Shown here: in pieces, positions 7,038 through 49,807 of the stretch
How the letters are laid out: each line of letters opens with the position of its first letter
Numbering within the stretch: position 1 is the first letter of the stretch
Source of the DNA: Sinomicrobium kalidii
GTDB taxonomy: Bacteria; Bacteroidota; Bacteroidia; Flavobacteriales; Flavobacteriaceae
Reading direction: 5' to 3'
Assembly (NCBI RefSeq): GCF_021183825.1
Contig: NZ_CP089211.1
Span: 2,170,001-2,234,000 of the forward strand
DNA: 64,000 nt
Made by a program: the position numbers and the translations under genes
Notes under the pieces: generated by a model
What the model saw: only the letters and a program-made list of their open reading frames with translations
The model's database searches: none
What the model was told of the DNA's origin: nothing

Positions 7038-7616
7038 ATGAAAAAGATTAAAATCCCCAATAGCGAAGTCCGGGAATTAGTATCAGGCAAAACCTATAGC
7101 TTTCCGAAATATACCACTCAGTTAATGAATTTAGCAAACTCGAATGCCCAGGGTACAAGACCTCATGTTGTGGGGCAAATGAGTGATCTTATCCAGGAAT
7201 TTCCAGGCAGGACCATTAGTGGATGGCAAAAGTGGTACTTGGAAAAGCAACCAGAAGCTATCGAAAATGCTACAGAAAAGGTATACGCCATGATTCGACA
7301 GTTCCAGGAGGTTATTGATGAGATTGATAAGGAAATGGTCAGAAATTGGGTTGAAGAGTTAGTGATTATAAAAACATTTTCGGGCTTAAGGTTTCAGGAT
7401 GCTATTTTAAAGCGGGTGGGCCAAGCAAAAAGCACCACTTGCAGGTTAGCTATGCCGGAAGAAGAAAGCAGAGGTATCGACGGGTATATCGGTGATATGC
7501 CGGTAAGCATTAAACCTATTTCCTATAAGAGCAAAATATTAAATGAACGGATTGATGCATCGCTGATTTTCTATAACAAAAAAAAGGATGGTATAACGAT
7601 AGAGTATGACTTCTAA
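7038..7616 (+). CDS. MjaI-family type II restriction endonuclease
   Basis: The 192-residue protein carries the conserved start of the MjaI family (FPKYTTQLMNLANSNAQG, then TRPHVVGQMSDLIQEFPGRT and WQKWYLEKQPEAIENATEK). A PD-(D/E)XK-type core follows near residues 148-166 (EEESRGIDGYIGDMPVSIKP), where Glu/Asp and the SxK lysine are the likely metal-binding and catalytic residues. Characterised family members cut CTAG; that specificity is inherited by family only. The partner methylase lies convergently at 8733-9851. Length is normal for the family. Confidence 0.88.
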   Translation: MKKIKIPNSEVRELVSGKTYSFPKYTTQLMNLANSNAQGTRPHVVGQMSDLIQEFPGRTISGWQKWYLEKQPEAIENATEKVYAMIRQFQEVIDEIDKEMVRNWVEELVIIKTFSGLRFQDAILKRVGQAKSTTCRLAMPEEESRGIDGYIGDMPVSIKPISYKSKILNERIDASLIFYNKKKDGITIEYDF

Positions 7617-7624
7617 AATAGCAA

Positions 7625-7975
7625 ATGTCTATGTTTACACAAGAACAAATACAAGCATTGTTAAATGTTTTACCGGAAAGAAAGGAGGATGCAATTAATG
7701 CTCCTGAATTAGCACGAGCTTTGGGCTATTCGTCTTTACCAAACCAGGAAGAATTAAGAGCCCTTATCAGGCAAGCAATTCGGGAGAATCATCTAATAGG
7801 AAGCGACAATAGTGGTTATTGGCTGATAAATAGTCTTGATGAATTAGAAGATATCTTAGATTCACTGGAACGAAGAGCTAAAAGGACATGTGATAGAAGG
7901 AATCATTTGCTAAATGCCTGGAATGAGAAATACCCAGACAATTTATCAATTAAAATCAGTAAAGATGTAAATTAA
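7625..7975 (+). CDS. Winged-helix-like small protein of the R-M operon
   Basis: The 116-residue protein starts 8 bp after the MjaI-type nuclease. Residues 1-65 look like a winged helix (INAPELARALGYSS, then ELRALIRQAIRENHLIGSDN and SGYWLINS). A charged helix follows (ELEDILDSLERRAKRTCDRR). The layout is common in phage and R-M associated regulators that read DNA. No catalytic motif is seen. It could be a regulator or a specificity/accessory subunit; the function is not known. Confidence 0.7.
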   Translation: MSMFTQEQIQALLNVLPERKEDAINAPELARALGYSSLPNQEELRALIRQAIRENHLIGSDNSGYWLINSLDELEDILDSLERRAKRTCDRRNHLLNAWNEKYPDNLSIKISKDVN

Positions 7976-7980
7976 AATCT

Positions 7981-8736
7981 ATGCAAGAATTCACGTTAAG
8001 TATTGATCCCAATAAATTCAGGTCGACCAATTCTTCCTGGAACAACTTAATGCTTAATGCCCCCTGGTCCGTAGGTTATGTTACAACTTTAATTGAGCTT
8101 ACTTCATTTAAGCAAAAAGAGGATTGGGAAGATTTTTATTATCAAAGCGGAGAACAACGCGAAGAATTAATATCTGGCTTAACTCCTGAGCAACAGAATA
8201 TATTAAATGATGCGTCTTTGGTACTCATTAATAAAACTGCCATTAACCAACTAAGCTGGGATATGAGAAATTTAAATACGCAATACGGCAGAACTAAGAA
8301 AAGATTGCAGGACAAAGGTCTTATTCTGTATGAATCGGTAAAAGACAACGGATGGGGCTTAACTATTGAGGAATGTATCGAATGCGTGCGTTTTCGGGTC
8401 ATTTGTGAAACCTGGAATGGGGTAATCGTCAGGGAAAAAAATACTGTTGAAAAACTAAAACAGCTATTCCCCCAAACCGAATTTAGAAAAGTAAGCGGAG
8501 AAAAAGACCACACTTATGCTGTAGATTATGAGCTATATAAAAACAGCGTTTTAACCGTAGCTATTCAAATAAAACCTAAATCATACACCTGGAACGCACC
8601 CTATATTCAAAAAGCAAAAAATGCGAATAGGCGTAAAAATCAAAAATATTTAGACGAATTCGGAGTCCAGGTTTTTGATGTCATTGCCGACAGTAAAGGA
8701 AATATTCTAAATTCTGATATCCTTAAAAAACTTTAG
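7981..8736 (+). CDS. Nuclease-like protein, candidate second PD-(D/E)XK enzyme
   Basis: The 251-residue protein starts 5 bp after the winged-helix gene. The N-terminal ~110 residues are helical with many aromatic residues. The C-terminal half has an alpha/beta pattern like a restriction-fold core: VDYELY (Asp/Glu) followed by a strand ending AIQIKPKSY (QxK), then a helix and FGVQVFDVIADSKGNIL. Glu/Gln-x-Lys after an Asp is the PD-(D/E)XK arrangement, so a nuclease is plausible, but I do not recognise the family. Its stop overlaps the convergent methylase stop by 4 bp, which ties it to the R-M island. Confidence 0.6.
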   Translation: MQEFTLSIDPNKFRSTNSSWNNLMLNAPWSVGYVTTLIELTSFKQKEDWEDFYYQSGEQREELISGLTPEQQNILNDASLVLINKTAINQLSWDMRNLNTQYGRTKKRLQDKGLILYESVKDNGWGLTIEECIECVRFRVICETWNGVIVREKNTVEKLKQLFPQTEFRKVSGEKDHTYAVDYELYKNSVLTVAIQIKPKSYTWNAPYIQKAKNANRRKNQKYLDEFGVQVFDVIADSKGNILNSDILKKL

Positions 8737-9851
8737 ACAACTCCTACGGTAGAATCTAATTTCTTTTTATCCAAAATTGATGTATCAACAGGTGCCGCCG
8801 TTACATAATCGGCCATAAACGATAAATCATCTTTTGGATATATCTGTTCCACCAGCCGAAACCTGATCCCGGTTTCCTGTTTGGTCATTACCGGTAATCG
8901 CAGGTTTTCATTAGAATGTTTTATCTCCCCTTTTTTGGCATCGGCATTTCTTTCATTAATGAAATCCATATGCTTTTCAATCCTGTTTCGGATAATGGCA
9001 TTGTAAAAATCTGCCGGGGCCGATGTTATATTATCCGTTATGATTTTCTGAAACATGGGGTCAATTTCATAACCCACACTATTCCTGTTGGAGGCGATAG
9101 CCGCAAGCGATGTTGTTCCGGTACCTAAAAACGGGTCTAAAACAGTATCTCCCTGCACAGAGTACATATTAATAAGCCGGTATGGTAATTCGAAAGGGAA
9201 GGCTGCACTTCTTTTTCTCGTTTCGGAATTCTCAATTTTTTGTTTGCTCCCCTTAAAATCCCATAAATCTGAAAACCAGATATTTCTTTCTTCCCAAAAG
9301 AACGAGCTTTCTCTTCTTCTTACTTTATCCGCTTCCGTATTAAACTTTCTTTTCCCTCCTTTTCTGAAAACAAGAATCCACTCATGCTCTAACGTAACAT
9401 AAGCCCCCGATGGCAACATTCCCGACCCCATAAACTTGTTTGGTGCGTTGGTTTGTTTTCTCCAGATAATATTGGGGAGATTCGGTACTCCCAGTTTTTG
9501 AAATGCATTTATAATTCTTGCGTGATTGGGATAGAGGGCAAACTCATTATTTATCGTCCTTGTGGCGTCTCCGATGTTAATGCAGGCAAAACCTCCGGGC
9601 ATTAGCACTCTTTCCACCTCTGCCCATACTTTGTCCAGCTCTGAATGCATCTGTTCGAACCCTTCGGCTCCTTTACCGCAATCAAGCGATGTCCGAATTT
9701 CAGGATTTTGTCTGGCCATTACATCATCCCACATTTCAATCATGGGATATGGTGGTGAGGTAACAACAAGAGCTATGGAATTGTCTTCTACCTGCTCCAT
9801 TTTTTGAGCAGCCCCGATAATTACCCTATGATTTGTTGATTCTGATTTCAT
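8733..9851 (-). CDS. DNA (cytosine-N4 or adenine-N6) methyltransferase, M.MjaI/MthZI-like
   Basis: The 372-residue protein has motif IV near the N-terminus (VVTSPPYPMIEMWDD, residues ~30-44), a second conserved block (MPGGFACINIGDATR) and the SAM-binding motif I near residue 240 (DPFLGTGTTSLAA, then GYEID). This IV-before-I order is the beta class, and the TSPPYPMIEMWD form is typical of N4-cytosine methylases specific for CTAG. It should protect the host from the MjaI-type nuclease at 7038-7616. It is convergent to the nuclease operon, so each half has its own promoter. Confidence 0.88.
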   Translation of the reverse strand: MKSESTNHRVIIGAAQKMEQVEDNSIALVVTSPPYPMIEMWDDVMARQNPEIRTSLDCGKGAEGFEQMHSELDKVWAEVERVLMPGGFACINIGDATRTINNEFALYPNHARIINAFQKLGVPNLPNIIWRKQTNAPNKFMGSGMLPSGAYVTLEHEWILVFRKGGKRKFNTEADKVRRRESSFFWEERNIWFSDLWDFKGSKQKIENSETRKRSAAFPFELPYRLINMYSVQGDTVLDPFLGTGTTSLAAIASNRNSVGYEIDPMFQKIITDNITSAPADFYNAIIRNRIEKHMDFINERNADAKKGEIKHSNENLRLPVMTKQETGIRFRLVEQIYPKDDLSFMADYVTAAPVDTSILDKKKLDSTVGVV

Positions 9852-10135: not shown

Positions 10136-10169
10136 CTTTAATTTGTTTGTAAAAACAAAATCTACCCGG

Positions 10170-10589
10170 ATGGCTGATGTACACGATAAAAAGACCCGGA
10201 GTTATAATATGAGCCGGATCAAAGGGAAAGATACTAAACCGGAAATCCTGGTGAGGAAATATTTATTTTCTCTGGGGTTCAGATATCGTTTACACGATAA
10301 AAATTTTCCCGGAAAGCCCGATCTGGTTTTTCCGAAATACAGAAAAGTTGTTTTTATACACGGATGTTACTGGCACGGTCATGAAGATTGTAAATATTTT
10401 GTCCCGCCCAAAACAAAAACGGAATGGTGGTTAAATAAAATCGGTAACAATAAAAAAAGAGATGAACAAAACATTTCCCGGATCAGGGACATGGGGTGGC
10501 TCCCCATCATTATTTGGGAATGTGAACTAAAACCCGGTAAACGGGACAAAACATTTGAAAATTTAGTCGAAGAGCTGAAAAAACAATGA
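10170..10589 (+). CDS. vsr: Vsr-family very short patch repair endonuclease
   Basis: The 139-residue protein starts at the ATG at 10170, giving the canonical Vsr start MADVHDKKTRSYNMSRIKGK; a longer TTG-initiated frame from 10143 is less likely. Conserved features follow: TKPEILVRKYLFSLGFRYR, the catalytic PGKPDLVFPKYR (Asp) and the zinc/active-site block FIHGCYWHGHEDC. Vsr nicks T:G mismatches left by deamination of 5-methylcytosine. It overlaps the C5 methylase start by 4 bp (ATGA), which is translational coupling. In this operon it may act as a repair enzyme or as an effector nuclease. Confidence 0.95.
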   Translation: MADVHDKKTRSYNMSRIKGKDTKPEILVRKYLFSLGFRYRLHDKNFPGKPDLVFPKYRKVVFIHGCYWHGHEDCKYFVPPKTKTEWWLNKIGNNKKRDEQNISRIRDMGWLPIIIWECELKPGKRDKTFENLVEELKKQ

Positions 10590-11821
10590 GCACCATCAGA
10601 TACATTGATTTATTTGCCGGAGCCGGGGGCTTATCGGAGGGCTTTCACAGACAGGGATTTAAACCTGTTGCTCATGTGGAATTTGATAAAGCAGCCTGTT
10701 TTACTTTAAAAACGAGAGTTGCATATCACTATTTATCTGAGTCCGGACAGGAAGACATATATCATTCTTACCTTAAAGGAGATATTGACAGAAAAGAATT
10801 ATATAAAGCTGTTCCGGAGAACTTACTAAATACGGTAATCAATGCGGAAATAGGTAAGGATAATCCGGGTGTTTTCAATAAAATAGATAATGTTCTCGGA
10901 GAAAACACCGTAGATCTGATTATAGGCGGTCCCCCATGTCAGGCTTACTCTGTTGTAGGGAGGGCTCCGCTGAAACATAAGAAGAATGATGAGCGCACCA
11001 GATTATATATACAATATGGCCGGTACTTAAGGAAGTACCGGCCCAAGGTATTTGTTTTTGAAAATGTTCCCGGAATCCTTACGGCCGCGGAAGGCAGTTA
11101 TTATAGAAACCTGAAAGCTTATTACCGGAGAATCGGTTATGAATTGGATGCTAAGTTGCTGAATGCTTACGATTATGGTGTGGTACAGAACCGGCAAAGG
11201 GTAATTATTATAGGTTGGAAAAAAGAACTCGATTGGTCTTATCCTGATATACCGATAGAAAAGCAAAAGTATTACAGAGATATTATTTTTTCTGATTTAC
11301 CCTCTGTGAGTCCGGGCGAAACAGGAAGAACACATGAATATACTTCAGAATTAAATGGCTACCTGAAACGAAAAGGTATCCGAAACGGAATCGGTTTTGT
11401 TGCCCAGCATATTACACGCCCTCATAACGACAATGACCTGGCAATCTATAAACTCGCTATAGAAGAACTTGAAAAAGGAGAGCGTATAAAAAATAACCGG
11501 ATTCCTGAAACGATGAGAACTCAGAATAATGTTACGGACTTTCTGGACAGATTTAAAGTGGTTGACAAAGAGCCACATACCATGATCGCCCATATAGCTA
11601 AGGATGGTCATCATTTTATACACCCCGACAAAGAACAACTACGATCCATTTCAGTAAGGGAAGCTGCCAGAATCCAGTCTTTTCCAGACGATTATTATTT
11701 CGAGGGAGTTAAAGAAGATCAGCCAAGAACGGCGGCTTTCAGGCAGATAGGGAATGCTGTTCCGCCGGTAATGGCAGAGAAAATAGCTTTAAGCATAAAG
11801 AATTTATTAAATGACAGATAA
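10586..11821 (+). CDS. DNA (cytosine-5) methyltransferase
   Basis: The 411-residue protein contains all main C5 methylase motifs in order: I (DLFAGAGGLSEGFHRQGF), IV with catalytic Cys (GGPPCQAYSVVGRA), VI (FENVPG), VIII (QNRQRVIIIG), IX (SVREAARIQSFPDDYYF) and X (QIGNAVPPVMA). It methylates the host target site, and Vsr corrects the resulting mutagenesis. It overlaps vsr by 4 bp and the following GHKL gene by 11 bp, so the methylase and the downstream ATPase are produced together. The target sequence cannot be deduced. Confidence 0.95.
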   Translation: MSTIRYIDLFAGAGGLSEGFHRQGFKPVAHVEFDKAACFTLKTRVAYHYLSESGQEDIYHSYLKGDIDRKELYKAVPENLLNTVINAEIGKDNPGVFNKIDNVLGENTVDLIIGGPPCQAYSVVGRAPLKHKKNDERTRLYIQYGRYLRKYRPKVFVFENVPGILTAAEGSYYRNLKAYYRRIGYELDAKLLNAYDYGVVQNRQRVIIIGWKKELDWSYPDIPIEKQKYYRDIIFSDLPSVSPGETGRTHEYTSELNGYLKRKGIRNGIGFVAQHITRPHNDNDLAIYKLAIEELEKGERIKNNRIPETMRTQNNVTDFLDRFKVVDKEPHTMIAHIAKDGHHFIHPDKEQLRSISVREAARIQSFPDDYYFEGVKEDQPRTAAFRQIGNAVPPVMAEKIALSIKNLLNDR

Positions 11822-14234
11822 TTCAAAAATAGATAAATATTCCTTTCAGCCTGGTGCTATGTCCATCATTCAGATGGGGGAAGAGTTAATAGGTCATCCA
11901 AGTACTGCAATTAATGAATTAGTGAAAAACAGCTATGATGCGGATGCGAAGAAAAGCAAAGTCTATTTTCAGCATTCAGAAAATACAGGTCATAGTTTTG
12001 CCATAATCTGTGATGATGGTAACGGCATGGATTCTTCTACTTTATTCGGTAGCTGGCTACAGCCATCCGTTAGTACCAAGCGAACTCCCGGAGCCAAAAG
12101 TGAAGTTTACCAAAGAAATCTGCTGGGCAGCAAGGGAATAGGCCGTTTAGCTGCCATGGCTTTGGGAGAAAATGTAACAGTCATCACAAAAGAAGAAAAT
12201 GAAAAAGAGTATAACTGGATCTCTGTTAACAGAGAAGCTTTTCGGGAAGAAAAATTATTATCAGACATTCATTTCCCAGGGGGTATAATTACTGATTTTC
12301 TTTCCCTTTTTTATGACAAAACCCTTCTAAGGGAAAGAATATCCCTTTACCTCGAAAAGGAAGTTAAAGAGGAAAGTGCAGAAGACAAGGATGCTTTAAC
12401 AGATCAGATTCTGGAAAAGATCATTGCTGACAACAAAGATCACATTATAAAGTTTCTGGAAAACGCCGGACTAACATCCTTCAATAAAGGAACCTTGATA
12501 GTCATAGAACGTCTGGATGATGCTGTATTAAAAATATTAAAAAAAGATTTTGACCAGATCGAACTTCCGGATATAAATACCGAACCTTATAAAGATACAC
12601 GGTTTTATAAAGCTCTCGCCACATTAATAACCCCTTTAAAATTCAATTCCAGAATACAACAGGAACTACTGGAAAAAGGTATTATCAAACAGGAAAAAGT
12701 GATTTCCGGAATTGAAAATGAATTTTCTATTGAATATTCTACAAATCTGATACCGGATCAGGAAGATAAAATAGAATGGCTTCCTGTAATTCCTATTCCG
12801 GTGCAATCAGTATATGATTACAGGGTTTATGGAAAGGTATCTGAAAAAGGCAATGTTGAAGGTATTATGTCTTTTCAAAGGTTAGAAGAAGATAAACACG
12901 AAATAAGTTTTAATCTTGCCGGCAAAGATATTCATGAAGAGAGTAACATCCAGCACAAATTATTTGAAGACGAAAATAACGAAGGCCCCGGAGAATATTA
13001 TTTTGATATCCGGGTATATGATATAGGAGAAAAAGATAATCTTGAAAAACTGGCAAGAAGTTTAAATCTTAATACAGGGAGTCAATTCAAAAGGGCCTTT
13101 AAGAACTTTCAGGGTTTAAGAATTTCCAAAAATGGTTTTGGCGTTAAGCCTTATGGTGAAGAAGTTGAGGATTGGATTGAATTATCCAAGGCCAGGGTTC
13201 AGCAACCGGGAAAAAATGTAAACACAAATCAGATCCTGGGATACGTATTTTTTTATTCACCTGATAACGACAACCTGGAAGAAAAAACCAACAGAGAAGG
13301 ATTCCTTGAAAATAAGGCCTTTCAGGAAGTTAAAGATACTATGAAAGCTATTTTTTCCGAGTTGGGTAAAATAAGATATAACTATCGTTTACTGCAAGGT
13401 TTAGGAAGAATTCCAAACAGTAAACATGACAGACCGGACTTCGAGGAATATTTAGCTAAGCTCTATAGCATGGATGCTACTCCTGCTTTAATAAGTTATT
13501 CTACCAAGTTCATGAAAGATGTATCCACATCCATGGATAATATTGAAGAATCTCTTTCATTCTCGGAGCGGTTAGCTTCTTTAGGTAGCGGTATAGAATT
13601 GGTATATCATGAAATGGCACAACCAATTTCCGGATTAAGGACCACTAAATCTTCTCTGGATCTCAAAAAGGAAAAAATTAATCCTGAGGTAAGAAACAAT
13701 TTTATCAATGATATTAATCACCTGAATTATGCCACTGATATTTTAGCAGAATTGAGAAAGTCTTTACAACCGGCAATAGGCAGAACCAGGAAGAAAAATT
13801 TTTTTCTATATACTACTTTTTTAAAAGTTTGTAATCTCTATAAATCTGATTTTGACGAACACCATATTTCAATTAAGGCCGATGAAAGGCTAAAAGACTA
13901 TCGTATAAATGATCTTGAATATGCATTCTGGATTGCTTTTCTGAACATTATTAACAATGCTGTTTACTGGTTAAAAAAAGCTGAAAAAGGAGGTGAAATA
14001 AGATTCTTAAAAGAAGGAGAACAATTAGTAATAAGTAATTCAGGGCCGTTCCTTAATGAAGAATTAATTGAGCATATTTTTAATTATGGCGTTACTACAC
14101 GTTCTGAAAAAAATGCTACAGGACTCGGGCTGGCTTTCACTCAAAGCATACTTAGCCGGAATAATTGGGATATCCAGGCAGAAAACCGGGAAGATGGTCC
14201 CGCATTCATCATTAAAAAAGCAGAAAATGACTAA
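11811..14234 (+). CDS. GHKL ATPase fused to a histidine-kinase-like module
   Basis: The 807-residue protein has two GHKL units. The N-terminal one is MutL/Hsp90/MORC-like: N box AINELVKNSYDADA (~residues 33-46), CDDGNGMDSS and GSKGIGRLAAMALG. The C-terminal half resembles a sensor kinase: ELVYHEMAQPISGLRTTKSS, an H-box-like helix with His600, then an ATPase with FLNIINNAVYWL and FNYGVTTRS...ATGLGLAFTQSIL. The middle (~200-560) is not assigned. No membrane segment is present, so it is cytosolic. MORC-like GHKL ATPases are known partners of methylases and nucleases in R-M systems; the added kinase half suggests phosphotransfer to the next gene. Confidence 0.88.
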   Translation: MTDNSKIDKYSFQPGAMSIIQMGEELIGHPSTAINELVKNSYDADAKKSKVYFQHSENTGHSFAIICDDGNGMDSSTLFGSWLQPSVSTKRTPGAKSEVYQRNLLGSKGIGRLAAMALGENVTVITKEENEKEYNWISVNREAFREEKLLSDIHFPGGIITDFLSLFYDKTLLRERISLYLEKEVKEESAEDKDALTDQILEKIIADNKDHIIKFLENAGLTSFNKGTLIVIERLDDAVLKILKKDFDQIELPDINTEPYKDTRFYKALATLITPLKFNSRIQQELLEKGIIKQEKVISGIENEFSIEYSTNLIPDQEDKIEWLPVIPIPVQSVYDYRVYGKVSEKGNVEGIMSFQRLEEDKHEISFNLAGKDIHEESNIQHKLFEDENNEGPGEYYFDIRVYDIGEKDNLEKLARSLNLNTGSQFKRAFKNFQGLRISKNGFGVKPYGEEVEDWIELSKARVQQPGKNVNTNQILGYVFFYSPDNDNLEEKTNREGFLENKAFQEVKDTMKAIFSELGKIRYNYRLLQGLGRIPNSKHDRPDFEEYLAKLYSMDATPALISYSTKFMKDVSTSMDNIEESLSFSERLASLGSGIELVYHEMAQPISGLRTTKSSLDLKKEKINPEVRNNFINDINHLNYATDILAELRKSLQPAIGRTRKKNFFLYTTFLKVCNLYKSDFDEHHISIKADERLKDYRINDLEYAFWIAFLNIINNAVYWLKKAEKGGEIRFLKEGEQLVISNSGPFLNEELIEHIFNYGVTTRSEKNATGLGLAFTQSILSRNNWDIQAENREDGPAFIIKKAEND

Positions 14235-15375
14235 TGGGGTAATTTTACATCTTGACAATGATTCAAAAATATTAAATCGATCAAAAGACCTTTTTGATCA
14301 ACAGGGCTTGGGCATCGACTATATTACCTGTGAAACAAAAGAAATATTTGAATCAGCAATCGCCGATAATCAATCCAGTATTAAAGCATTAATCTTTGAT
14401 TTATTAAGTGAAGAGCCAAGTGCTGATGAACTACAGAAAAAAGACGCTCAGTTTTTGGAAAACCTGCAATCAAGTTTTGCGAAATATAACATTCCTATCT
14501 TTATATATAGTGGTTTTCTACAAGCTCTTGAAAATGAATTTGATAATTATGGAACTGTTTTTACTGTAGATAAGGATCAAGGAATTCAGCCTGTTTTTGA
14601 CAAAATAAAAATGTTATTGGAATCAGGATTTATCGATGTTTTCTGTCCGGGAGGAATTTTAGAAACCGAAATAAAAGAAGAACTTCATAACTCCTTTATT
14701 AAACAATTTACCAAAAATGATCAGATAGAAGAAGTCATAAAAAGTATTTCTAAAGCGGCTCAAGAACCTGAGCAACCTTCTGATAGAGTAAAAAAAATCT
14801 TTAAAAGAATTGCCATAAAAGCACTTGCTTCTGACTTATTAGCCCCTGTAATTGATAGTAAAGATAAAGTTCATCCTATTGAACATTTCTACAAACGTCA
14901 AAGCGAATTACCCGTTTGGACAGGAGATATCTGGAAGCAACAGGAAAAAGAAGAAGCTGTTTTAGTTATGACTCCGAGATGTGACTTCGCAGTCAATAAG
15001 GTTGAAAATATTATATTGTGTCAGATTGAATCTGCCCCCAAATTTTCAATGGAAGCAAAACGTGAAAATTTATTAAAAGAACTAAGAAAATACTTAATTG
15101 ACAATATACATGGTAAAGCTAAAAGATATATTCCGAGTAATGTTTTTTTTCCTGAAGGAGGAATGGTAAATGTATCAAAACATTCAACTATAAATAAAGA
15201 TCAGTTCGTTAAAGATTATACTTATATAGTTACACTTAGCGATGATCTCACCAATGAGATCATTGGAAAGTTTGCCTATTATTTCCTTAGAACAGGAATA
15301 ACCAACATTAATGAAAACGAGTTTGAAGCAATTATCAAAGCTCTTAACTCGGAAAACGACAATGACCAAGAATAA
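14227..15375 (+). CDS. Receiver-domain protein of the methylase/GHKL operon
   Basis: The start at 14227 (MTNGVILHLDNDSKIL) is chosen because the longer frame from 14068 lies inside the GHKL gene; the 8-bp overlap fits the tight operon. The 382-residue product begins with a CheY-like fold: acidic residues D10/D12, likely phospho-Asp D58 (ALIFDLLS), S95 (IFIYSG) and K116 (TVDKD). Residues ~130-382 form an unknown domain with a VMTPRCDF motif and no DNA-binding helix-turn-helix that I recognise. It is probably the phosphorylation target of the kinase-like half of the upstream protein and may gate a nuclease. Confidence 0.8.
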   Translation: MTNGVILHLDNDSKILNRSKDLFDQQGLGIDYITCETKEIFESAIADNQSSIKALIFDLLSEEPSADELQKKDAQFLENLQSSFAKYNIPIFIYSGFLQALENEFDNYGTVFTVDKDQGIQPVFDKIKMLLESGFIDVFCPGGILETEIKEELHNSFIKQFTKNDQIEEVIKSISKAAQEPEQPSDRVKKIFKRIAIKALASDLLAPVIDSKDKVHPIEHFYKRQSELPVWTGDIWKQQEKEEAVLVMTPRCDFAVNKVENIILCQIESAPKFSMEAKRENLLKELRKYLIDNIHGKAKRYIPSNVFFPEGGMVNVSKHSTINKDQFVKDYTYIVTLSDDLTNEIIGKFAYYFLRTGITNINENEFEAIIKALNSENDNDQE

Positions 15376-16132
15376 AAACTGGACATATGAGGAGCACATA
15401 TTAGCATTTAATTTATACTGTAAAATACCATTTACAAAAATCAATGCCAACTATGCTCCTGTAAAAGAATTAGCTGGTATCATAGGCCGAACCAATGGAG
15501 CAATGGCAATGAAATTAGCAAATTTTGCCCGGCTGGACCCTGCCTTGCAAGCCAGAAATGTTTCCGGCTTAACCCAGGGGGCAAAAGGAGAAGAAGAGGT
15601 ATGGAATGAATTTCACGGAAACTGGGAAGAATTAGCCTGGCAAAGTGAACAGATTTTAGCCCGGTATAAAGGTATTCCTGTCGAAAAATCCTCGGAAATC
15701 AGTATAGACAATATACCCGAAGGTAAAGAAAGAGAGGCAACAGTAAAGAACAGAGTAAATCAATCATTTTTCAGGAAAATGATACTGGCCTCCTATAACT
15801 ACTCCTGCTGTATTACAGGAATATCTGTACCGGAATTACTGGTTGCAAGTCATATAATCCCCTGGTCTGAAGATAAATTTAACCGGATGAATCCTTCCAA
15901 TGGTTTGTGCCTTAATTCACTCCATGACTCTGCCTTTGATAAGGGGCTTTTAACTATTACCCCGGATTATAAAATTAAATTATCTCAGAAACTTCTCAAC
16001 ATCACAGATAATACAGCTTCAGGTTTTTTTTTACTATACAATAACAAATCCATTCTGCCATCAACACGGTTTTCGCCAGATCTTGAATTTCTGGAATGGC
16101 ATAATAAAAATATTTTTAAGGAGCCGTTTTAA
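15362..16132 (+). CDS. HNH restriction endonuclease
   Basis: The start at 15362 (MTKNKNWTYEEHILAFNLY) overlaps the receiver gene by 14 bp and gives 256 residues. The N-terminal region is the SAP/HTH-like start seen in HNH restriction proteins. The catalytic part, at ~160-205, has CCITGISVPELLVASHIIPW, then NPSNGLCLNSLHDSAFDKG (H-N-H with the zinc-like Cys residues), the HNH_2 type. It is the last gene of the vsr-methylase-GHKL-receiver operon and the most likely cleaving effector against unmodified DNA. Confidence 0.92.
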   Translation: MTKNKNWTYEEHILAFNLYCKIPFTKINANYAPVKELAGIIGRTNGAMAMKLANFARLDPALQARNVSGLTQGAKGEEEVWNEFHGNWEELAWQSEQILARYKGIPVEKSSEISIDNIPEGKEREATVKNRVNQSFFRKMILASYNYSCCITGISVPELLVASHIIPWSEDKFNRMNPSNGLCLNSLHDSAFDKGLLTITPDYKIKLSQKLLNITDNTASGFFLLYNNKSILPSTRFSPDLEFLEWHNKNIFKEPF

Positions 16133-17091: not shown

Positions 17092-18282
17092 ATGAAATAT
17101 AAAATACTCTTTGATAAAGTAAGAACCATAGTTAAGCACCATACTGAACTTAAACAATTAAAGGGCGAAAATTTTAATGTATTTGATATTCTTAATCTTC
17201 AGACTAATGAAGTAAGAACACATTCTGCCTTTTTAGCAGAACTGTTAAATCCGAAAGGTTCTCATTTGATGGGAAGTCTATTTTTGGAGGATTTTTTAGC
17301 TATCATCAACCATGATATTAACGGAACAGAAGAGTTTGACATTTCAACAGCATCTGTTCTGGTAGAGGCCTATATAGGCAAGGTTGAAAAAGAAACAGGT
17401 GGGCGCATAGATATTTTGTTAACGGATAGTAAGGGAAATACCATCACTATTGAAAATAAAATTGATGCAGGAGACCAGGAGAATCAAATTCTTCGCTATT
17501 ACAATTACAATGAATCCAAAAACACAGTTTACTATTTAAACAAATACGGGGATGAACCCAGTGAAAACAGTAAGAATGAACTGGAATCCGGTTCCGATTT
17601 TCATATTATTAGTTACCGCAATCATATTATATCCTGGCTGGACAAATGCAATGAACTGGCGGCAGATCAGCCTATCCTGAGAGAAAGCATTAAGCAATAC
17701 AACATCTTAATAAAAAAACTAACGAATACCCTTGAAAACAAACAAGAAATGGAATTGAAAAAACTAATATTAGACAATCTTGAAGAAGCTGAGCTCATAG
17801 CACAAAAATATGATTCGGTTTTAGCACGTGTGCGTGAGGATTTCAGAATAGCATTGATAGAAGAACTTACAAATTACCGGGAACAAACAGATAGCTTAAA
17901 AAACTATAACATAAAGGCTAACAAAGCCATTAATGCCACATATTCCGGTATTTGGATTCCTCAAACAGAAAACTCCAAAAAAATGTTTGGGGTTTGTGGT
18001 TTTAGTGGTAAGGGACATATAAATGGTGATTTTTTTGTAGGATTGTATAATGAGACTGAGCTAGAGAATACAGATTTGAAAGGTATAGATAGTAATAAGA
18101 ATTGGAGGCATTATAAAGTTTTAACCTGTAATTTTAAAGAGAATCCGGAATGGACTATTAATTGTTCTGACAAGGATTTTCTAAAATATATTGCCAACCC
18201 GGAAAACTTAAAACAAGTAGTTAACGAGGTTAAAAAACAAATTATTGATTTTATTGAAAAGTATATTGGTTATGTCAGTTAA
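17092..18282 (+). CDS. PD-(D/E)XK nuclease superfamily protein (PDDEXK_4-like)
   Basis: The 396-residue protein begins with a helical region containing NVFDILNLQTNEVRTHSAFL and AELLNPKGSH, the conserved entry of the PF14281-type family. The nuclease core follows at ~95-125: VEKETGGRIDILLTD (Asp) and ITIENKIDAGDQENQI (ExK). A long helix at ~195-270 and a C-terminal alpha/beta domain (SKKMFGVCGFSGKGHINGDFF) complete it. Family members are solitary or defence-associated nucleases. Its 3' end overlaps the next gene by 11 bp, so the two form a two-gene unit. The substrate is unknown. Confidence 0.85.
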   Translation: MKYKILFDKVRTIVKHHTELKQLKGENFNVFDILNLQTNEVRTHSAFLAELLNPKGSHLMGSLFLEDFLAIINHDINGTEEFDISTASVLVEAYIGKVEKETGGRIDILLTDSKGNTITIENKIDAGDQENQILRYYNYNESKNTVYYLNKYGDEPSENSKNELESGSDFHIISYRNHIISWLDKCNELAADQPILRESIKQYNILIKKLTNTLENKQEMELKKLILDNLEEAELIAQKYDSVLARVREDFRIALIEELTNYREQTDSLKNYNIKANKAINATYSGIWIPQTENSKKMFGVCGFSGKGHINGDFFVGLYNETELENTDLKGIDSNKNWRHYKVLTCNFKENPEWTINCSDKDFLKYIANPENLKQVVNEVKKQIIDFIEKYIGYVS

Positions 18283-22769: not shown

Positions 22770-23864
22770 ATGGTCAAACCAAATAAACAGGTAATCATGA
22801 AAAATACCTTACCCTTATTGCCCCCGCAGGCAGATATAGAAACGTCAAAAATTTTAAAGCAACTGGCAAAATCGCACCGCTTTCTCGCCGAGTTGAAGGG
22901 AACTTCTAAAACCATTCCTAATGAAAATATTTTAATAGATACTTTAACCCTTCAGGAAGCAAAGGACAGCAGCGAAATAGAAAATATAGTAACCACACAC
23001 GATGATCTGTATAAAGAAAACATCTTTATAGAGAGTAAAAGTGCAGCAGCCAAAGAGGTATATAATTATGCAAGAGGATTAAAGCTGGGATTTCAGGTCG
23101 TTCGGAAAGAAAAATTGTTGCTCAATAAACACATACTGGCCATTCAAAAAGAACTCATGGAGAATAATGCGGGTTTCCGGACGCAGGCAGGAACAATACT
23201 TAAAAACTCGTTGGGAAAGGTGGTGTACACCCCGCCGCAGGATACCAGGGAAATACTGGATTTAATGGCAAACCTGGAAAAGTTTATTAATGATAATGAA
23301 TTTTCAGACCTCGACCCTTTGATTAAAATGGCTCTAATCCACTACCAGTTTGAAAGTATCCACCCTTTTTATGACGGTAATGGGCGTACGGGGAGAATAA
23401 TAAACATATTGTATTTGGTACAGCAGGGGTTACTGGACATCCCGGTATTGTATTTAAGTCGGTATATTACCCGGAACAAACCGGAGTATTATCGGGTACT
23501 GCAGCAGGTAAGAGATAAAAACGGCTGGGAAAATATGGTTATGTATTTACTCAAAGGCGTTGAGGTTACTGCTATGCAGACCATAGTCCTTATTACGAAA
23601 ATTAAAAACTTGATGCAGGATTATAAAACAAGGTTAAGAACTGAACTACCTAAAATATACAGCCAGGATTTATTGAATATCATGTTTAAAAGCCCTTATA
23701 CTAAAACCGACTTTTTGGAAACAGAATTAAGGATAAGCAAACGAACTGCCCTGAATTATTTGGATACCGTTTCGGAAATAGGTTTGTTGGAAAAGATAAA
23801 GGCTGGAAAATCAAATTATTACATCAACACCAATTTGATTGACGTACTGGTTAATGAGCTATAA
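22770..23864 (+). CDS. Fic-family protein (AMP transferase), class II
   Basis: The 364-residue protein has the active-site motif HPFYDGNGRTGR beginning at His198, preceded by ALIHYQFESI, as in Fic enzymes that transfer AMP from ATP to target proteins. An N-terminal inhibitory helix is present: S67-SEI-E71-N72 fits the (S/T)xxxE(G/N) motif, so the enzyme is autoinhibited (class II). The C-terminal ~80 residues look like a winged helix (ETELRISKRTALNYLDTVSE, then IGLLEKIKAGKSNYYINT), as in Fic proteins that self-regulate. An alternative start is Met10 at 22797, which fits the family better. It is a single-gene unit. Confidence 0.92.
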   Translation: MVKPNKQVIMKNTLPLLPPQADIETSKILKQLAKSHRFLAELKGTSKTIPNENILIDTLTLQEAKDSSEIENIVTTHDDLYKENIFIESKSAAAKEVYNYARGLKLGFQVVRKEKLLLNKHILAIQKELMENNAGFRTQAGTILKNSLGKVVYTPPQDTREILDLMANLEKFINDNEFSDLDPLIKMALIHYQFESIHPFYDGNGRTGRIINILYLVQQGLLDIPVLYLSRYITRNKPEYYRVLQQVRDKNGWENMVMYLLKGVEVTAMQTIVLITKIKNLMQDYKTRLRTELPKIYSQDLLNIMFKSPYTKTDFLETELRISKRTALNYLDTVSEIGLLEKIKAGKSNYYINTNLIDVLVNEL

Positions 23865-45316: not shown

Positions 45317-48300
45317 TCACTCCAACACCACGCCTACGCCTATCTTTTCCAGTAAATAAGGGTTGTGATCTATCACTAAAAGATCATTGTGTACACTGAG
45401 TTGCTGCAATACCTTGTACAACAAATCGATATCGGCATAATGCAATCCTATGCCGGGTTCGTCTAATATTAATAGTTGATCTTTCGTTTTGTTTTGCAAC
45501 CAGTTGAGCAACAACAAACGTTGTTTTTCTCCGGAAGAAAGTGATTTTACCGTTTGATCGAGCCGTACATGAGAAAGCCCTATATGGTGCAATGCCTGTA
45601 ATTGCTGTACTGCCTTAGCTGTACCAGCATAAGGGGCTATCCAATCCAGCAATTCCGTAACGTTCAGCGCCAGGACATCTGCAATATGTTTTCCGCCTAT
45701 GGTATAGGCTAAAACAGCTTTTTGATAGCGTTTTCCCTCGCATACATCACAAATTTCAATATGCCTGGCAGCTATATCCAGACTCGTGGCTACGACACCG
45801 CTTCCCAGACAATGCGTACACTGACTGGTTTTGGTCTTATACGAAAAGGCTGCGGCCTTACCCCCTGTTTCCTTCGCAAATACCTTAGTGATCACTTTTA
45901 ACAGATCTAAATAGGCTACCAGCAATGTACTGTTATACGCTTGTAATTTTTTTGGTTCAAAATAATGTACACTTAGATATTGCTTCGGAAAATCAATACG
46001 CTTGCAATATACAGGTCGATGCTGCTGTAAACTTGGCATTACCACCTCTTTGACCAAAGTAGTCTTCCCGATACCCGACTTCCCTGTTATGGCTGTAATA
46101 CCGCCTACCGGGATATCGATTTGTGCTCTTTTGAGACTGTGACGTGCTATGCCTTCTATATGAATATGCGCTTTTCCCTGCCGAAAACGTACCGCACTGC
46201 TTTTTGTTTTTACATAAGGATGACATACTTCCGAAGACCGGTAAGCGGCTGCACTTCCCTGAAACGTAATTTCACCACCCATACTTCCTGCCCCCGGGCC
46301 TATCTGCACCAAATGATCGGCCGCCAGCATAATATCTTTGTGATGCTCAATGACAATGACCGTATTGCCCTTGGCTACAAGCGTTTTCAGCAAAGCGATC
46401 AGATCGGGTATATTGTTTTGGGATAAGCCCGCCGAAGGTTCATCCAGCAAATAGGTTACCCCTTGTAACGGACTGTTTAATTGTTTGATGAGCGAAACCC
46501 GCTGTTGTTCGCCGCCACTCAACGTGCCCGACTTTCGGTTAAGCTGTAAATGGTCTATATGCAATTGACGCGCCCGCTCCAATGTATGTTGCAAATGCGC
46601 ATGTAATTTTGCTACCAATTCGGCATCAACAGCATCTTTTGGCCGACTATTGACCAACCATGCTTCGAACGCCTGTAAACTCATCGCTTTCAGATCTCGC
46701 ATGGAGTTGCCGCCCAGGGTAACCGCCAAACGCTGGGGTTGTAATCCGCTTCCCTGGCAATGACTACAAACTTCCGGAGTGAACAAAGCGCGTAAATGTT
46801 GAATATTTTTGTTCTTTCGGGTAAGAAAGTATTCGTCCGTTAAATAGGTAAACAAGCCTTTCCACACCATCTTTAGCTGTTGGGTTCCCGCTCGTGACCT
46901 GGTTTTGAAAGTCCAGGTCGTTTCCCAGGTTTTCTCCGGAATTCCATGAAAGATCACCCCCCGTTGCTCCCGGGTCAATGCCTTAAAAGGCGTTTGCAGA
47001 TTAAAACCATACGTCTTTCCTATTTCACTTACGATCGCCATATACTGTCCGCCTGCCTGCCCGTAGTAATACAAGGCTTTGTTGTGCTCGAAGAGTCCGT
47101 CGGCAATGCTCAGGTCCTCATCCAGCACTATTTTGGACAGATCGGGAAGCAATTCTTGTCCCACGCCGTCACAAATACCACATTTCCCCAATTCGTGCGC
47201 ATTCGAAAAATGACTGGCCGACCATTCCCTGCCTTCGTATTGTGCTTTACGCGAAAAGGCAAAACGTAAACTTTTATCGATATCGGTTTGTTTGGCTACA
47301 TCCGAACGCCCGGAAAACTGCTGATCTTTCCGGGTGATACAAATGCTGGGCGTCAATCCGGTGATATGATCTGCTTCAAAATGATAGTCAACGCCTACCC
47401 TGTTTTGTTGATAGCTTGAAAATTGTTTGCTCATTTCCTGTAATCCGTAGCCATGCAGGGTATCGATCACCAAAGAAGATTTTCCCGATCCTGAAATTCC
47501 CGTAACCACCGTGAGCTGTTGTTTGGGCAACGTAACATCAATGTCTTTTAACGCATGAGTCCGTGCTCCCTTGATACGAATGGTGTCAGTAGCTGATTGT
47601 TCGGGAATACGTTCGCTTACTGCAGCTATACTTTCGGCATTATTTACCCATACATCGCACCCCGACTGAAACAAAGCGTGATTCTCAAAACATACGATCC
47701 CCGAAGTTTCGTGTTTCAACTGATGCAAAGCCTTTAGCAGTTGTACTACATTTTGCTGGTGTAGCCCGATACTCGGTTCTTCTAACACTAAGATGGTTTG
47801 TTGGGCAGGTTTCGCAAAGTACTTGGTGAGTTTAATACGCTGTGCTTCGCCTCCGCTTAATGTGTTGGACGGTTGCCCGAGTTTGATATATCCTAAACCT
47901 AAACGCAGCATCAAAGTCAGAATTCCGGATAATTTCTTTTCATGCCGAAAGAGATCATACGCTTCTGCTATACTGAGATCATAAATTTCTGCGATGTTCT
48001 TAGTATTCCAATGTACCTGAAGGACTTCCGGCTTAAAACGTTTCCCGTTACACTCGGGGCAGGTTTGATTAATGGTTCCCATAACACTCATCGAAAGGGT
48101 AATAACCCCTGCTCCTTCACAACGCGGGCAACGTCCTGCTTTGTTATTAAAAGAAAAGGCGCTTTTCTTCAATTGCAATGTCCCGGCTTCATCGGTTTTT
48201 GCCAACAGGTCCCGGATCTTATCGGCCATTCCCGTATACGTCGCCGGATTGCTGCGCGGCGTTTTTCCTATCGGTTGATCGGATACGGTGCGTAATTGCA

Positions 48301-49807
48301 GTGCCTGTTCTTTGCCATAGGCTTTGATCGCATCTAATACGGCAGCTGTTTTTCTGCTTACTACCGATAAACTTTGTGCGGCCGGCTGAAAGTCTGCTTC
48401 TGAAAGCTGTTGCCGTTCGCTGTTCGAATTTTGTGCGGGAGAACGCAATTCGGCCAATGTCGGGCTCGCTATACCTTCTGCCTGGAGAAAGGCTGTCCGC
48501 TTACCGTTAAAGATCACCTCCCCACCATGAATCCCGGCTTTTGGGCCTAATTCTATAATCCAATCTGCTTGCTGAATCAAATTCAAATCGTGCTCTACGA
48601 CCATTACCGTATTTCCCCGGCTGATCAAACGTCGTAAAATGCCATACAAATGCTGCTGATAGGCCGGTGACAATCCGATAGAAGGTTCATCAAAAACATA
48701 TAAAATCCCCTGTAAACTACTGTTTACCTGTTTAATGAGTTTGATGCGTTGCCCGTCTCCACTGGAAATATCCATACTCGGCGTGCTCAAACGGTAATGA
48801 TCCATCCCCAACCGGATCAAATCGTATAACGGGGTGCACAATTTGTCTACCAGCACCTGCTCTCCTGCCCGGTACTTCCCTGCCCGGAGTTTATTGTACA
48901 ATTCCTGCAAAGGCAACTCCATCCATTCCTGAAAATTCAATCCTTTCCATCGATACTTCAAATGTTCGGCCCTGATACGTGCACCCCGGCAACCGGGACA
49001 GATTTTAGCACTTGTAAACCGGAGAATACTCGGATTCCGGTCCAGCCGGAGAATATTGCTCATAATAGGCAAAATTCCCTTGTAATAACCTATTTCACGG
49101 GGTTTCGCCTTAAAACCTTCCCAGCGCAGGCGCGATTCCAGACTATGCTTTCCGTAGTACACCTGTATACGTTCACTACCATTCCAGATCACCTCCTGTT
49201 GTTCGGGAGTCAGGTCTTTCCACGGAATATCTACATTAAATCCGTGGGCTTCACAAACCTTGTTCAACTCCTCAACGGTAACCTGCGAATACACGATATA
49301 ACCGTTGGGCAAGGTGGTTACAATAGCTCCTTCGCGTAAAGTTTTGGTTTCGTCTCCCACCAGTTTAGCTGTATCGATATATTCGGCTTCACCGATTCCG
49401 CGACATTCCTCACAAGCGCCTTTGGGATGATTGAACGAAAACAGGGACTTACTCATGCTTTCTGCTGCGGAGTACCGGGCGAACAAAATTCGAAAAATGG
49501 GCGTCAACTCGGATAAGGTCCCAAACGTAGCATTGATCGATTGAAAACGCCTGGATTGCTCTACCTTGATCACCGGCGGAAGCCCGGCTATATCATCTAC
49601 CGAAGCTGTTGGTATCGAAGCTGCATTTTGTTGATTGTAAGCCGGCAAACTCTCTAAAAAATACCGGTAGCCTTCATTCCCGATCACTCCCATGGCCAGG
49701 GAAGATTTCCCCGAACCGGAAAGTCCTGTAACCACAATGAATTGGTTTTCCGGGACTGTTAAAGCTATATTCTTAAGATTGTTTTGGTAGGCGTTTTGAA
49801 TGCGCAT
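45317..49807 (-). CDS. Tandem UvrA-like ABC ATPase, 1496 aa
   Basis: A UvrA has ~940 residues; this has about 1.6 times that and four ABC units. Signature motifs: SSGDGQRIK (~350), LSGGEAQRIK (~650), LSGGEQQRV (~1095), LSSGEKQRL (~1425). Walker A is seen at residues 28-36 (GLSGSGKSS), ~768 (GISGSGKSS) and ~1240 (GKSGIGKTT). Unit 2 retains the UvrA sequence IGKTPRSNPATYTG but has lost its Walker A. Zinc-binding CxxC pairs remain (CEECRG; CPRCEG...CPECNG; CGICDG; CTHCLG...CDVCEG). It is probably a DNA-damage or drug-binding UvrA paralogue and not the housekeeping UvrA. It is a single gene with no UvrB/C nearby. Confidence 0.85.
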   Translation of the reverse strand: MRIQNAYQNNLKNIALTVPENQFIVVTGLSGSGKSSLAMGVIGNEGYRYFLESLPAYNQQNAASIPTASVDDIAGLPPVIKVEQSRRFQSINATFGTLSELTPIFRILFARYSAAESMSKSLFSFNHPKGACEECRGIGEAEYIDTAKLVGDETKTLREGAIVTTLPNGYIVYSQVTVEELNKVCEAHGFNVDIPWKDLTPEQQEVIWNGSERIQVYYGKHSLESRLRWEGFKAKPREIGYYKGILPIMSNILRLDRNPSILRFTSAKICPGCRGARIRAEHLKYRWKGLNFQEWMELPLQELYNKLRAGKYRAGEQVLVDKLCTPLYDLIRLGMDHYRLSTPSMDISSGDGQRIKLIKQVNSSLQGILYVFDEPSIGLSPAYQQHLYGILRRLISRGNTVMVVEHDLNLIQQADWIIELGPKAGIHGGEVIFNGKRTAFLQAEGIASPTLAELRSPAQNSNSERQQLSEADFQPAAQSLSVVSRKTAAVLDAIKAYGKEQALQLRTVSDQPIGKTPRSNPATYTGMADKIRDLLAKTDEAGTLQLKKSAFSFNNKAGRCPRCEGAGVITLSMSVMGTINQTCPECNGKRFKPEVLQVHWNTKNIAEIYDLSIAEAYDLFRHEKKLSGILTLMLRLGLGYIKLGQPSNTLSGGEAQRIKLTKYFAKPAQQTILVLEEPSIGLHQQNVVQLLKALHQLKHETSGIVCFENHALFQSGCDVWVNNAESIAAVSERIPEQSATDTIRIKGARTHALKDIDVTLPKQQLTVVTGISGSGKSSLVIDTLHGYGLQEMSKQFSSYQQNRVGVDYHFEADHITGLTPSICITRKDQQFSGRSDVAKQTDIDKSLRFAFSRKAQYEGREWSASHFSNAHELGKCGICDGVGQELLPDLSKIVLDEDLSIADGLFEHNKALYYYGQAGGQYMAIVSEIGKTYGFNLQTPFKALTREQRGVIFHGIPEKTWETTWTFKTRSRAGTQQLKMVWKGLFTYLTDEYFLTRKNKNIQHLRALFTPEVCSHCQGSGLQPQRLAVTLGGNSMRDLKAMSLQAFEAWLVNSRPKDAVDAELVAKLHAHLQHTLERARQLHIDHLQLNRKSGTLSGGEQQRVSLIKQLNSPLQGVTYLLDEPSAGLSQNNIPDLIALLKTLVAKGNTVIVIEHHKDIMLAADHLVQIGPGAGSMGGEITFQGSAAAYRSSEVCHPYVKTKSSAVRFRQGKAHIHIEGIARHSLKRAQIDIPVGGITAITGKSGIGKTTLVKEVVMPSLQQHRPVYCKRIDFPKQYLSVHYFEPKKLQAYNSTLLVAYLDLLKVITKVFAKETGGKAAAFSYKTKTSQCTHCLGSGVVATSLDIAARHIEICDVCEGKRYQKAVLAYTIGGKHIADVLALNVTELLDWIAPYAGTAKAVQQLQALHHIGLSHVRLDQTVKSLSSGEKQRLLLLNWLQNKTKDQLLILDEPGIGLHYADIDLLYKVLQQLSVHNDLLVIDHNPYLLEKIGVGVVLE

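Follow-up and report, generated by a model that had tools for sequence, protein, structure and literature searches.

MORC ATPases silence DNA in animals and plants by a mechanism that is unclear, and their bacterial versions sit beside DNA methylases. The subject of this work is a five-gene operon that encodes such an ATPase fused to a histidine kinase, together with a receiver protein, in a 64,000-nucleotide stretch of the Sinomicrobium kalidii genome (contig NZ_CP089211.1, positions 2,170,001 to 2,234,000; this whole stretch is hereafter the window). The closest described relatives are those of Bellieny-Rabelo et al. (2021; PMC8011034), who began from stress-induced genes in Pectobacterium, left the role open, and tied a paraMORC-like kinase, HEF_HK (PF19191), and a receiver, Response_reg_2 (PF19192), to C5 methylases, Vsr and HNH_2. 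They reported 91.6% linkage in 644 regions, with C5 methylases conspicuous, Vsr found in 20 genera and HNH_2 more frequent than any other endonuclease domain, and suggested a possible origin of the kinase as an offshoot of the paraMORCs. The first-pass annotation of the window had called its combination of genes unusual; it is not an unreported one, this earlier work having linked such kinases and receivers to restriction-modification (R-M) genes. The window operon shares with that system a kinase composed of HATPase_c_3, H-box and C-terminal HATPase_c, an adjacent receiver-like protein, and C5 methylase, Vsr and HNH_2 genes nearby; in size, the two differ, with 525-575 amino acids for the receiver and 966-1001 for the kinase in the 2021 system, against 382 and 807 in the window.

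Other systems share individual elements with this operon. The paraMORC and prokaryotic MORC systems of Iyer, Abhiman and Aravind (2008; PMC2292703) place a GHKL plus S5 ATPase beside methylases, Vsr and HNH (paraMORC1), as in the window; however, the window operon is without a helicase and has the kinase half fused, and the word 'Receiver' has no occurrence in the main text of that paper. A GHKL ATPase domain, likewise present in the window, is needed for the anti-phage activity of VcSduA (Shedu/paraMORC3-type; PMC12137116), but this is a single protein with a fused PD-(D/E)XK nuclease, and the available text describes no phosphorelay. The HEPN-paraMORC fusions (PMC3710099) tie a paraMORC ATPase to a proposed RNA-acting second effector near R-M genes; unlike in the window, the effector is fused directly and has the HEPN fold, with no kinase or receiver described in the text available. 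A literature search on kinase/receiver/methylase/GHKL anti-phage systems found none, and no experimental test of such an operon was found in a literature represented mostly by titles and the openings of abstracts. Detocs is a two-component phage defence system with kinase-to-receiver logic, and is not known to have a methylase or a MORC-like ATPase; its components DtcA, DtcB and DtcC were not among the PADLOC matches listed (the best 25 for two of ten proteins), from a library whose coverage of Detocs was not established. Taken together, the kind of operon has been known since 2021, but the branch in the window, and the way in which its switch protein is built, appear from sequence comparison to be new.

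Gene order, active-site residues, homology to the 2021 family, the predicted fold of the receiver's output domain and the exchange of that domain between operons were all computed; from these we infer the signal, the phosphotransfer, the order of events and the outcome of a methylation-marked restriction or abortive system gated by a phosphorelay, a reading to which we give a probability of roughly 45%. The first-pass annotation had listed five open reading frames (ORFs), for Vsr, a C5 methylase, a GHKL/kinase protein, a receiver and an HNH protein in that order, with overlaps of 4, 11, 8 and 14 base pairs (bp); their coordinates (Table 1), overlaps and identities hold, the latter through Pfam or, for the receiver, through a predicted model and fold search. 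It had also asked whether homologues would be scattered or keep this order, and the order is kept in relatives, which speaks against a chance arrangement. A single, non-exhaustive scan of a species-genome collection with two short peptide patterns yielded six loci (L002-L007), four of which (L002, L003, L005 and L006) carry the complete series, while L004 and L007 have the methylase, kinase, receiver and HNH genes with no Vsr detected, the HNH of L004 being of a different kind. With starts assigned by a script as the in-frame ATG closest to the preceding stop, the 8-bp kinase-receiver overlap recurs in all seven loci (the window and L002-L007) and the 14-bp receiver-HNH overlap in five. The window branch of the operon is rare: a receiver profile found the window genome and four distant ones among 395 genomes of the phylum, and six, including the window genome, among 397 of the family, where G753 belongs to this branch and G682 (locus L049) is a diverged relative. 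In L049 (5684-9876) the methylase is 54% and the kinase 43% identical, and the receiver ORF, of 213 amino acids, matches only the receiver-domain (REC) part.

The proposal of a MORC-like GHKL ATPase and a kinase-like half in one protein is borne out, as HATPase_c_3, the H-box His-Glu and HATPase_c all lie within one protein of the window, and the GHKL plus S5 ATPase module matches the Morc3 and SMCHD1 ATPases in fold. Residues of its ATP motifs (E36, N40, D43, D68, G70, G72, G106, G109 and G111) are invariant across 106 aligned proteins. In NCBIfam the C-terminal half is closest to sensor kinases, and all matches of the kinase fall below cut-off. The fusion matters in that the phosphate on a partner protein would be a readable output of what a MORC clamp senses. 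One alternative makes the MORC-like ATPase the sensor and has it bring about restriction directly, either as a subunit akin to a restriction enzyme or through DNA looping, with the kinase half and receiver vestigial. Consistent with this, the N-terminal ATPase is nearest in NCBIfam to the BbrUII/HgiDII restriction enzymes (E 7e-17, though at 61 bits far below the cut-off of 550) and to MutL, residues 1-131 match best, in PADLOC, a model of a type II restriction enzyme (E 3e-13), and Asn occupies both a G1-box position of the kinase and residue 11 of the receiver, as considered below. We nevertheless hold it highly improbable, given the invariance of H600 and E601 (106/106) and of D58 and K116 in the receiver (110/110), and the stronger conservation of the kinase half (67% identity between pairs on average, versus 60% for the GHKL half). 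Eight of 28 aligned kinases (P0133, P0160, P0164, P0174, P0175, P0191, P0200 and P0215) possess a conserved N-terminal extension of about 125-150 amino acids, absent from the window kinase, which is perhaps an extra DNA- or signal-binding domain.

The receiver is recognizable mainly by structure: a Pfam scan of it gave nothing under E 0.06, and solved structures compared by sequence gave no match to the receiver under E 0.2 or to its output domain under E 0.9. A helix-turn-helix (HTH) DNA-binding domain was found neither in the Pfam scan nor in the predicted model. For the C-terminal output domain a MazF/PemK-like fold is predicted, with no significant resemblance to MazF in sequence; the prediction comes from a fold search with the whole receiver model, whose match list consists mostly of receiver domains, so that the domain may have another fold. 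The predicted fold is thus held in common with the MazF/PemK toxins, but the conserved residues differ. Membership of the MazF family by sequence was rejected, since the window receiver has no PF02452 match at E<=1, so that the link stays at the level of fold; nor is PF02452 among the 25 of 34 families shown for 31 aligned receiver relatives. A Cys followed by Asp or Asn after a Pro is present in all 110 proteins of the window branch. Used alone as a query, the output domain retrieved 37 proteins, all of them lacking Pfam domains and none pointing to a function of the domain on its own; P0242, which is among them, may come from the same contig as kinase P0169 and could then be a split receiver. 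A match of the receiver end to a PADLOC type I specificity subunit (E 0.004) was set aside as chance. A literature search for a MazF-type output of a receiver found no report, and MazF, PemK, SH3 and 'output domain' have no occurrence in the main text of PMC8011034.

The window kinase and receiver constitute a separate branch, because no Pfam model of the 2021 family matches them, yet profiles give distant homology. Membership of the kinase in HEF_HK was rejected, with no PF19191 match at E<=1 and none at the locus at E<=10, as was that of the receiver in Response_reg_2, with no PF19192 match at E<=1 and none genome-wide at E<=10. PF19191 is absent from the 25 of 30 families shown for 28 aligned kinases (at best one member, above E 0.19), and PF19192 from the 25 of 34 shown for 31 aligned receivers (at best one member, above E 0.13). 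As positive controls, the kinases of L030 and L035 match PF19191 at about 1e-28 and their receivers match PF19192 at 5e-34 and 9e-27. The features of the wider paraMORC-kinase/receiver superfamily, namely the domain set, an adjacent receiver with Asp and Lys, and methylase linkage, are all present in the window. By hhalign, the window-branch kinase aligns with that of branch B, the 2021 kind, at E 7.5e-43 over most of its length, and with that of branch C at E 1.3e-64; the receiver aligns with that of branch C at E 3e-24, and the output domain with the branch B receiver at E 4e-6 and with the single branch D sequence at E 3e-7 over 55 columns. The receivers of B and C align with each other only at E 0.01. 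Those from the viral contigs of branch E align with C at E 1e-6 over 49 columns and with B at E 3e-4; against the window branch the alignment is not significant (E 0.0035, probability 9%), so the shared output domain in E rests on a signature recognized by eye. By eye, the CD part of this signature is seen in 8/8 receivers of B, 6/6 of C, the D sequence and 12/12 of E, and an R-x-G near the end in 6/8 of B (the other two having R-V-A), 6/6 of C, the D sequence and 12/12 of E. Thus, an xCD...R signature of the output domain recurs in four divergent related branches; together with the predicted MazF/PemK-like fold of the domain, this looks new.

The recurring core of these systems is methylase, kinase and receiver, with HNH and Vsr optional, and this too looks new. 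In branch B, with PF19192 above the family cut-off in 8 of 395 genomes (eight further genomes fall below it), the C5 methylase, kinase and receiver occur together in 8/8, Vsr upstream in one (L035) and HNH directly downstream in two (L032 and L035), a further HNH gene in L037 lying two genes off on the opposite strand. Branch C (L038-L040, L050-L052) has the trio in 5/6, Vsr directly downstream in 3/6 and HNH in none, while branch D is a single locus, L041, with an N4/N6 methylase instead of C5. Branch E (L083-L098) comprises 16 viral contigs with a kinase relative, of which 14 have a receiver-like ORF after the kinase, 15 a C5 methylase near the kinase or receiver gene and one (L091) an HNH gene. 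Its alignment holds 12 of the 14 receivers, L088 and L098, whose lengths equal those of L087 and L095, being left out, and L092 and L094 being near-duplicates; all 12 end in R[PQ]G. Overall, a DNA methylase lies beside the kinase and receiver genes in 36 of 38 counted loci (7/7 in the window branch, 8/8 in B, 5/6 in C, 1/1 in D and 15/16 in E), a count that includes some near-duplicates, contains no locus picked via its methylase, and leaves aside L049 as well as L048, which is identical with locus L007. Behind the receiver, a relative of the HNH gene was found in 7/7 loci of the window branch and, directly, in 2/8 of B, 0/6 of C and 1/16 of E, in searches for HNH and Vsr that used the window proteins as BLAST queries or small hidden Markov models, and that distant HNH and Vsr genes could escape. 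Among mobile elements, plasmids yielded a single distant match each to the window receiver and to a receiver of the 2021 branch, and phages three distant kinase matches; viral contigs searched with the window receiver profile gave no receiver relative. The kinase and receiver might alternatively serve stress or cell-state signalling and only travel with R-M genes, as would be allowed by the 2021 work, which set out from stress-induced genes and left the role open (PMC8011034); their adjacency to methylases across five divergent branches, with N4/N6 replacing C5 in L041, and their presence on viral contigs render this improbable.

Within the window branch, the output domain appears to have been exchanged between operons with similar kinase, methylase and HNH, which, from sequence, looks new. 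We compared 58 receiver-kinase pairs and the window, the pairing being inferred by eye from contigs of equal size in two lists of 120, after removal of one ambiguous size (29800; two receivers, two kinases). There is next to no correlation between REC and output-domain identities (Mantel rho 0.08, p 0.01); REC and the kinase halves correlate at 0.48 and 0.51, the output domain and the kinase at 0.11 (p 0.002), and the two kinase halves at 0.80. When the output domain was given wider borders, in an initial run, the values were 0.12, 0.48-0.51, 0.18-0.19 and 0.78, respectively. That REC tracks the kinase and the output domain hardly does would follow if the kinase had REC as its cognate partner and the output domain formed a module apart. 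In tree tests, run on fast trees with 2000 replicates (too few according to the program), each alignment rejects the trees of all other parts (approximately unbiased test, p-AU <=0.011), with likelihood gaps of 792 and 2002 for REC against the output domain, 525 to 1230 for REC against the kinase halves, and 162 and 365 for one kinase half against the other. Of 5995 receiver pairs, 18 combine a REC more than 70% identical with an output domain less than 50% identical, and 74 show the reverse; in P0043 and P0102, for example, 87% identity in REC goes with 36% in the output domain, the change falling at about residues 130-160. Among loci verified at the DNA level, the window and L002 share an output type that is only 32-40% identical to the one in L003-L007, while across the same divide the methylases are 71-78% and the HNH proteins (L004 apart) 65-73% identical. 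Such exchange offers a concrete handle on which part faces diversifying pressure.

These comparisons bear on a simpler account, an ordinary type II R-M system in which the C5 methylase and HNH form the pair and the kinase and receiver merely tune HNH expression or activity. The invariable position of HNH after the receiver in the window branch, the 14-bp overlap in five of the seven loci and the presence of HNH and methylase motifs all fit it. Nonetheless, it appears rather unlikely, since outside this branch the methylase, kinase and receiver occur without an adjacent HNH in most of the relatives counted, the receiver has no detected HTH domain, and the HNH of L004 (10161-10874), only 26-27% identical to its counterparts, accompanies an output domain 74-84% identical to those of L003, L006 and L007. 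The methylase, kinase and receiver of L004 are conserved. As most of the relatives counted in other branches lack an adjacent HNH, and the HNH and output domain changed independently in the few loci compared (seven), we regard the output domain as a module of its own and not a dedicated regulator of HNH. The regulated restriction suggested by the first-pass annotation is plausible, but its formula of a GHKL protein that senses and an HNH that cleaves is not supported as the core, as HNH was seldom detected next to the receiver in other branches.

For the phosphorelay-gated system that we favour, the following course may be envisaged. Going by the roles of their families, the C5 methylase would mark self DNA and Vsr would mend the T:G mismatches that arise from deamination of 5-methylcytosine. 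The paraMORC half might load onto DNA that is unmodified or invading, or clamp it, and so turn on the fused histidine kinase, whereupon His600 would pass its phosphate to Asp58 of the receiver, a transfer proposed from the conservation of both residues. Phosphorylation could release or activate the output domain of predicted MazF fold, as a second, exchangeable effector or target-binding module, with the HNH protein as the DNA-cutting effector in the window branch. Should the output domain prove to be an effector, a two-component switch would here be in control of restriction. A bolder version, which we consider unlikely, casts the receiver as an effector in its own right, controlled by phosphorylation. 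It would be a nucleic-acid enzyme of MazF fold whose new active site lies around Cys252, Asp/Asn253 and Arg355; the MORC-type clamp would fire it through the His-Asp relay on unmethylated DNA, and cassette exchange would diversify it while sensor and methylase are kept. If true, one unit would combine the telling apart of self and non-self DNA with two-component signalling and an abortive toxin.

Several observations weigh against the favoured reading. Canonical histidine kinases carry Asp at a G1-box position that is Asn743 in all 106 aligned kinases, and the confidence of the model is low just ahead of the H-box (residues 577-594, predicted local distance difference test, pLDDT, <50). At the receiver metal site, Asn11 takes the place of the second acidic residue in 90 of 110 proteins. 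MazF catalysis uses Arg and Thr, of which the output domain is without clear counterparts, a local, non-significant alignment placing other residues there; its hhalign comparison with MazF is likewise not significant (E 0.03, against 12 MazF relatives that passed a motif filter out of 30 loci). The REC and kinase trees conflict significantly, so that their co-evolution is partial, with no strict co-inheritance. Finally, seven DNA-verified loci allow only a weak test of whether output domain and HNH vary independently.

Table 1. Genes, domains and predicted phospho-acceptor codons of the operon, in window coordinates.
Feature	Position	Strand	Evidence
Vsr mismatch endonuclease	10170..10589	+	PF03852 E 3e-35; TIGR00632 over cut-off; PDLVF and HGxxWHxH motifs present
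C5 cytosine DNA methyltransferase, 411 aa (amino acids)	10586..11821	+	PF00145 (DNA_methylase) E 4e-63; PADLOC DrmMII E 5e-156
paraMORC-like GHKL ATPase fused to histidine-kinase half, 807 aa	11811..14234	+	HATPase_c_3 E 3e-19; HATPase_c E 2e-9
Predicted phospho-acceptor His600 codon (YHEM)	13608..13610	+	H600 and E601 in 106/106 aligned proteins
Kinase catalytic (CA) domain, residues 662-803	13794..14219	+	
Receiver: response-regulator-like protein, 382 aa	14227..15375	+	AlphaFold model, mean pLDDT 85.6
Receiver (REC) domain, residues 1-139	14227..14643	+	
Predicted phospho-acceptor Asp58 codon	14398..14400	+	D58 in 110/110 aligned proteins
Output domain, residues 217-378	14875..15360	+	Predicted MazF/PemK-like barrel fold; TGD...PRC[DN]...RTGI signature
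HNH nuclease, 256 aa	15362..16132	+	HNH_2 E 2e-14

The motifs looked for were found in all five window proteins. Vsr endonucleases act in T:G repair at methylated cytosines. The Vsr ORF is open from a TTG at 10143, and its TIGR00632 match starts at ORF residue 10, the ATG at 10170. The methylase, with DrmMII as its top PADLOC match, displays GGPPCQ, ENV, QNRxR and GNAVPP. The HNH protein has SHIxPW, NGLCLN and FDKG, matches the HNH endonuclease 6yex over residues 113-253 (E 8e-10), and in PADLOC hits first an HNH model without description and next a type II restriction enzyme model.

The region around the operon may be a defence island. Scans of the window found no tRNA and no Rfam match, and gave 28 promoter sites against 23.3 expected and nine terminators against 5.1 expected, from which no inference is drawn. 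Directly upstream (7038-9851) lies a second R-M set, with two MjaI-family restriction enzyme genes (192 amino acids, E 3e-68; 251 amino acids, E 8e-8) and a convergent N4/N6 methylase. Downstream are a PDDEXK_4 nuclease-like gene (17092-18282; PADLOC candidate PDC-S26, E 1.6e-136), a Fic/SoFic-type adenylyltransferase gene (22770-23864) and a gene for a 1496-amino-acid protein with UvrA DNA-binding and ABC domains (45317-49807).

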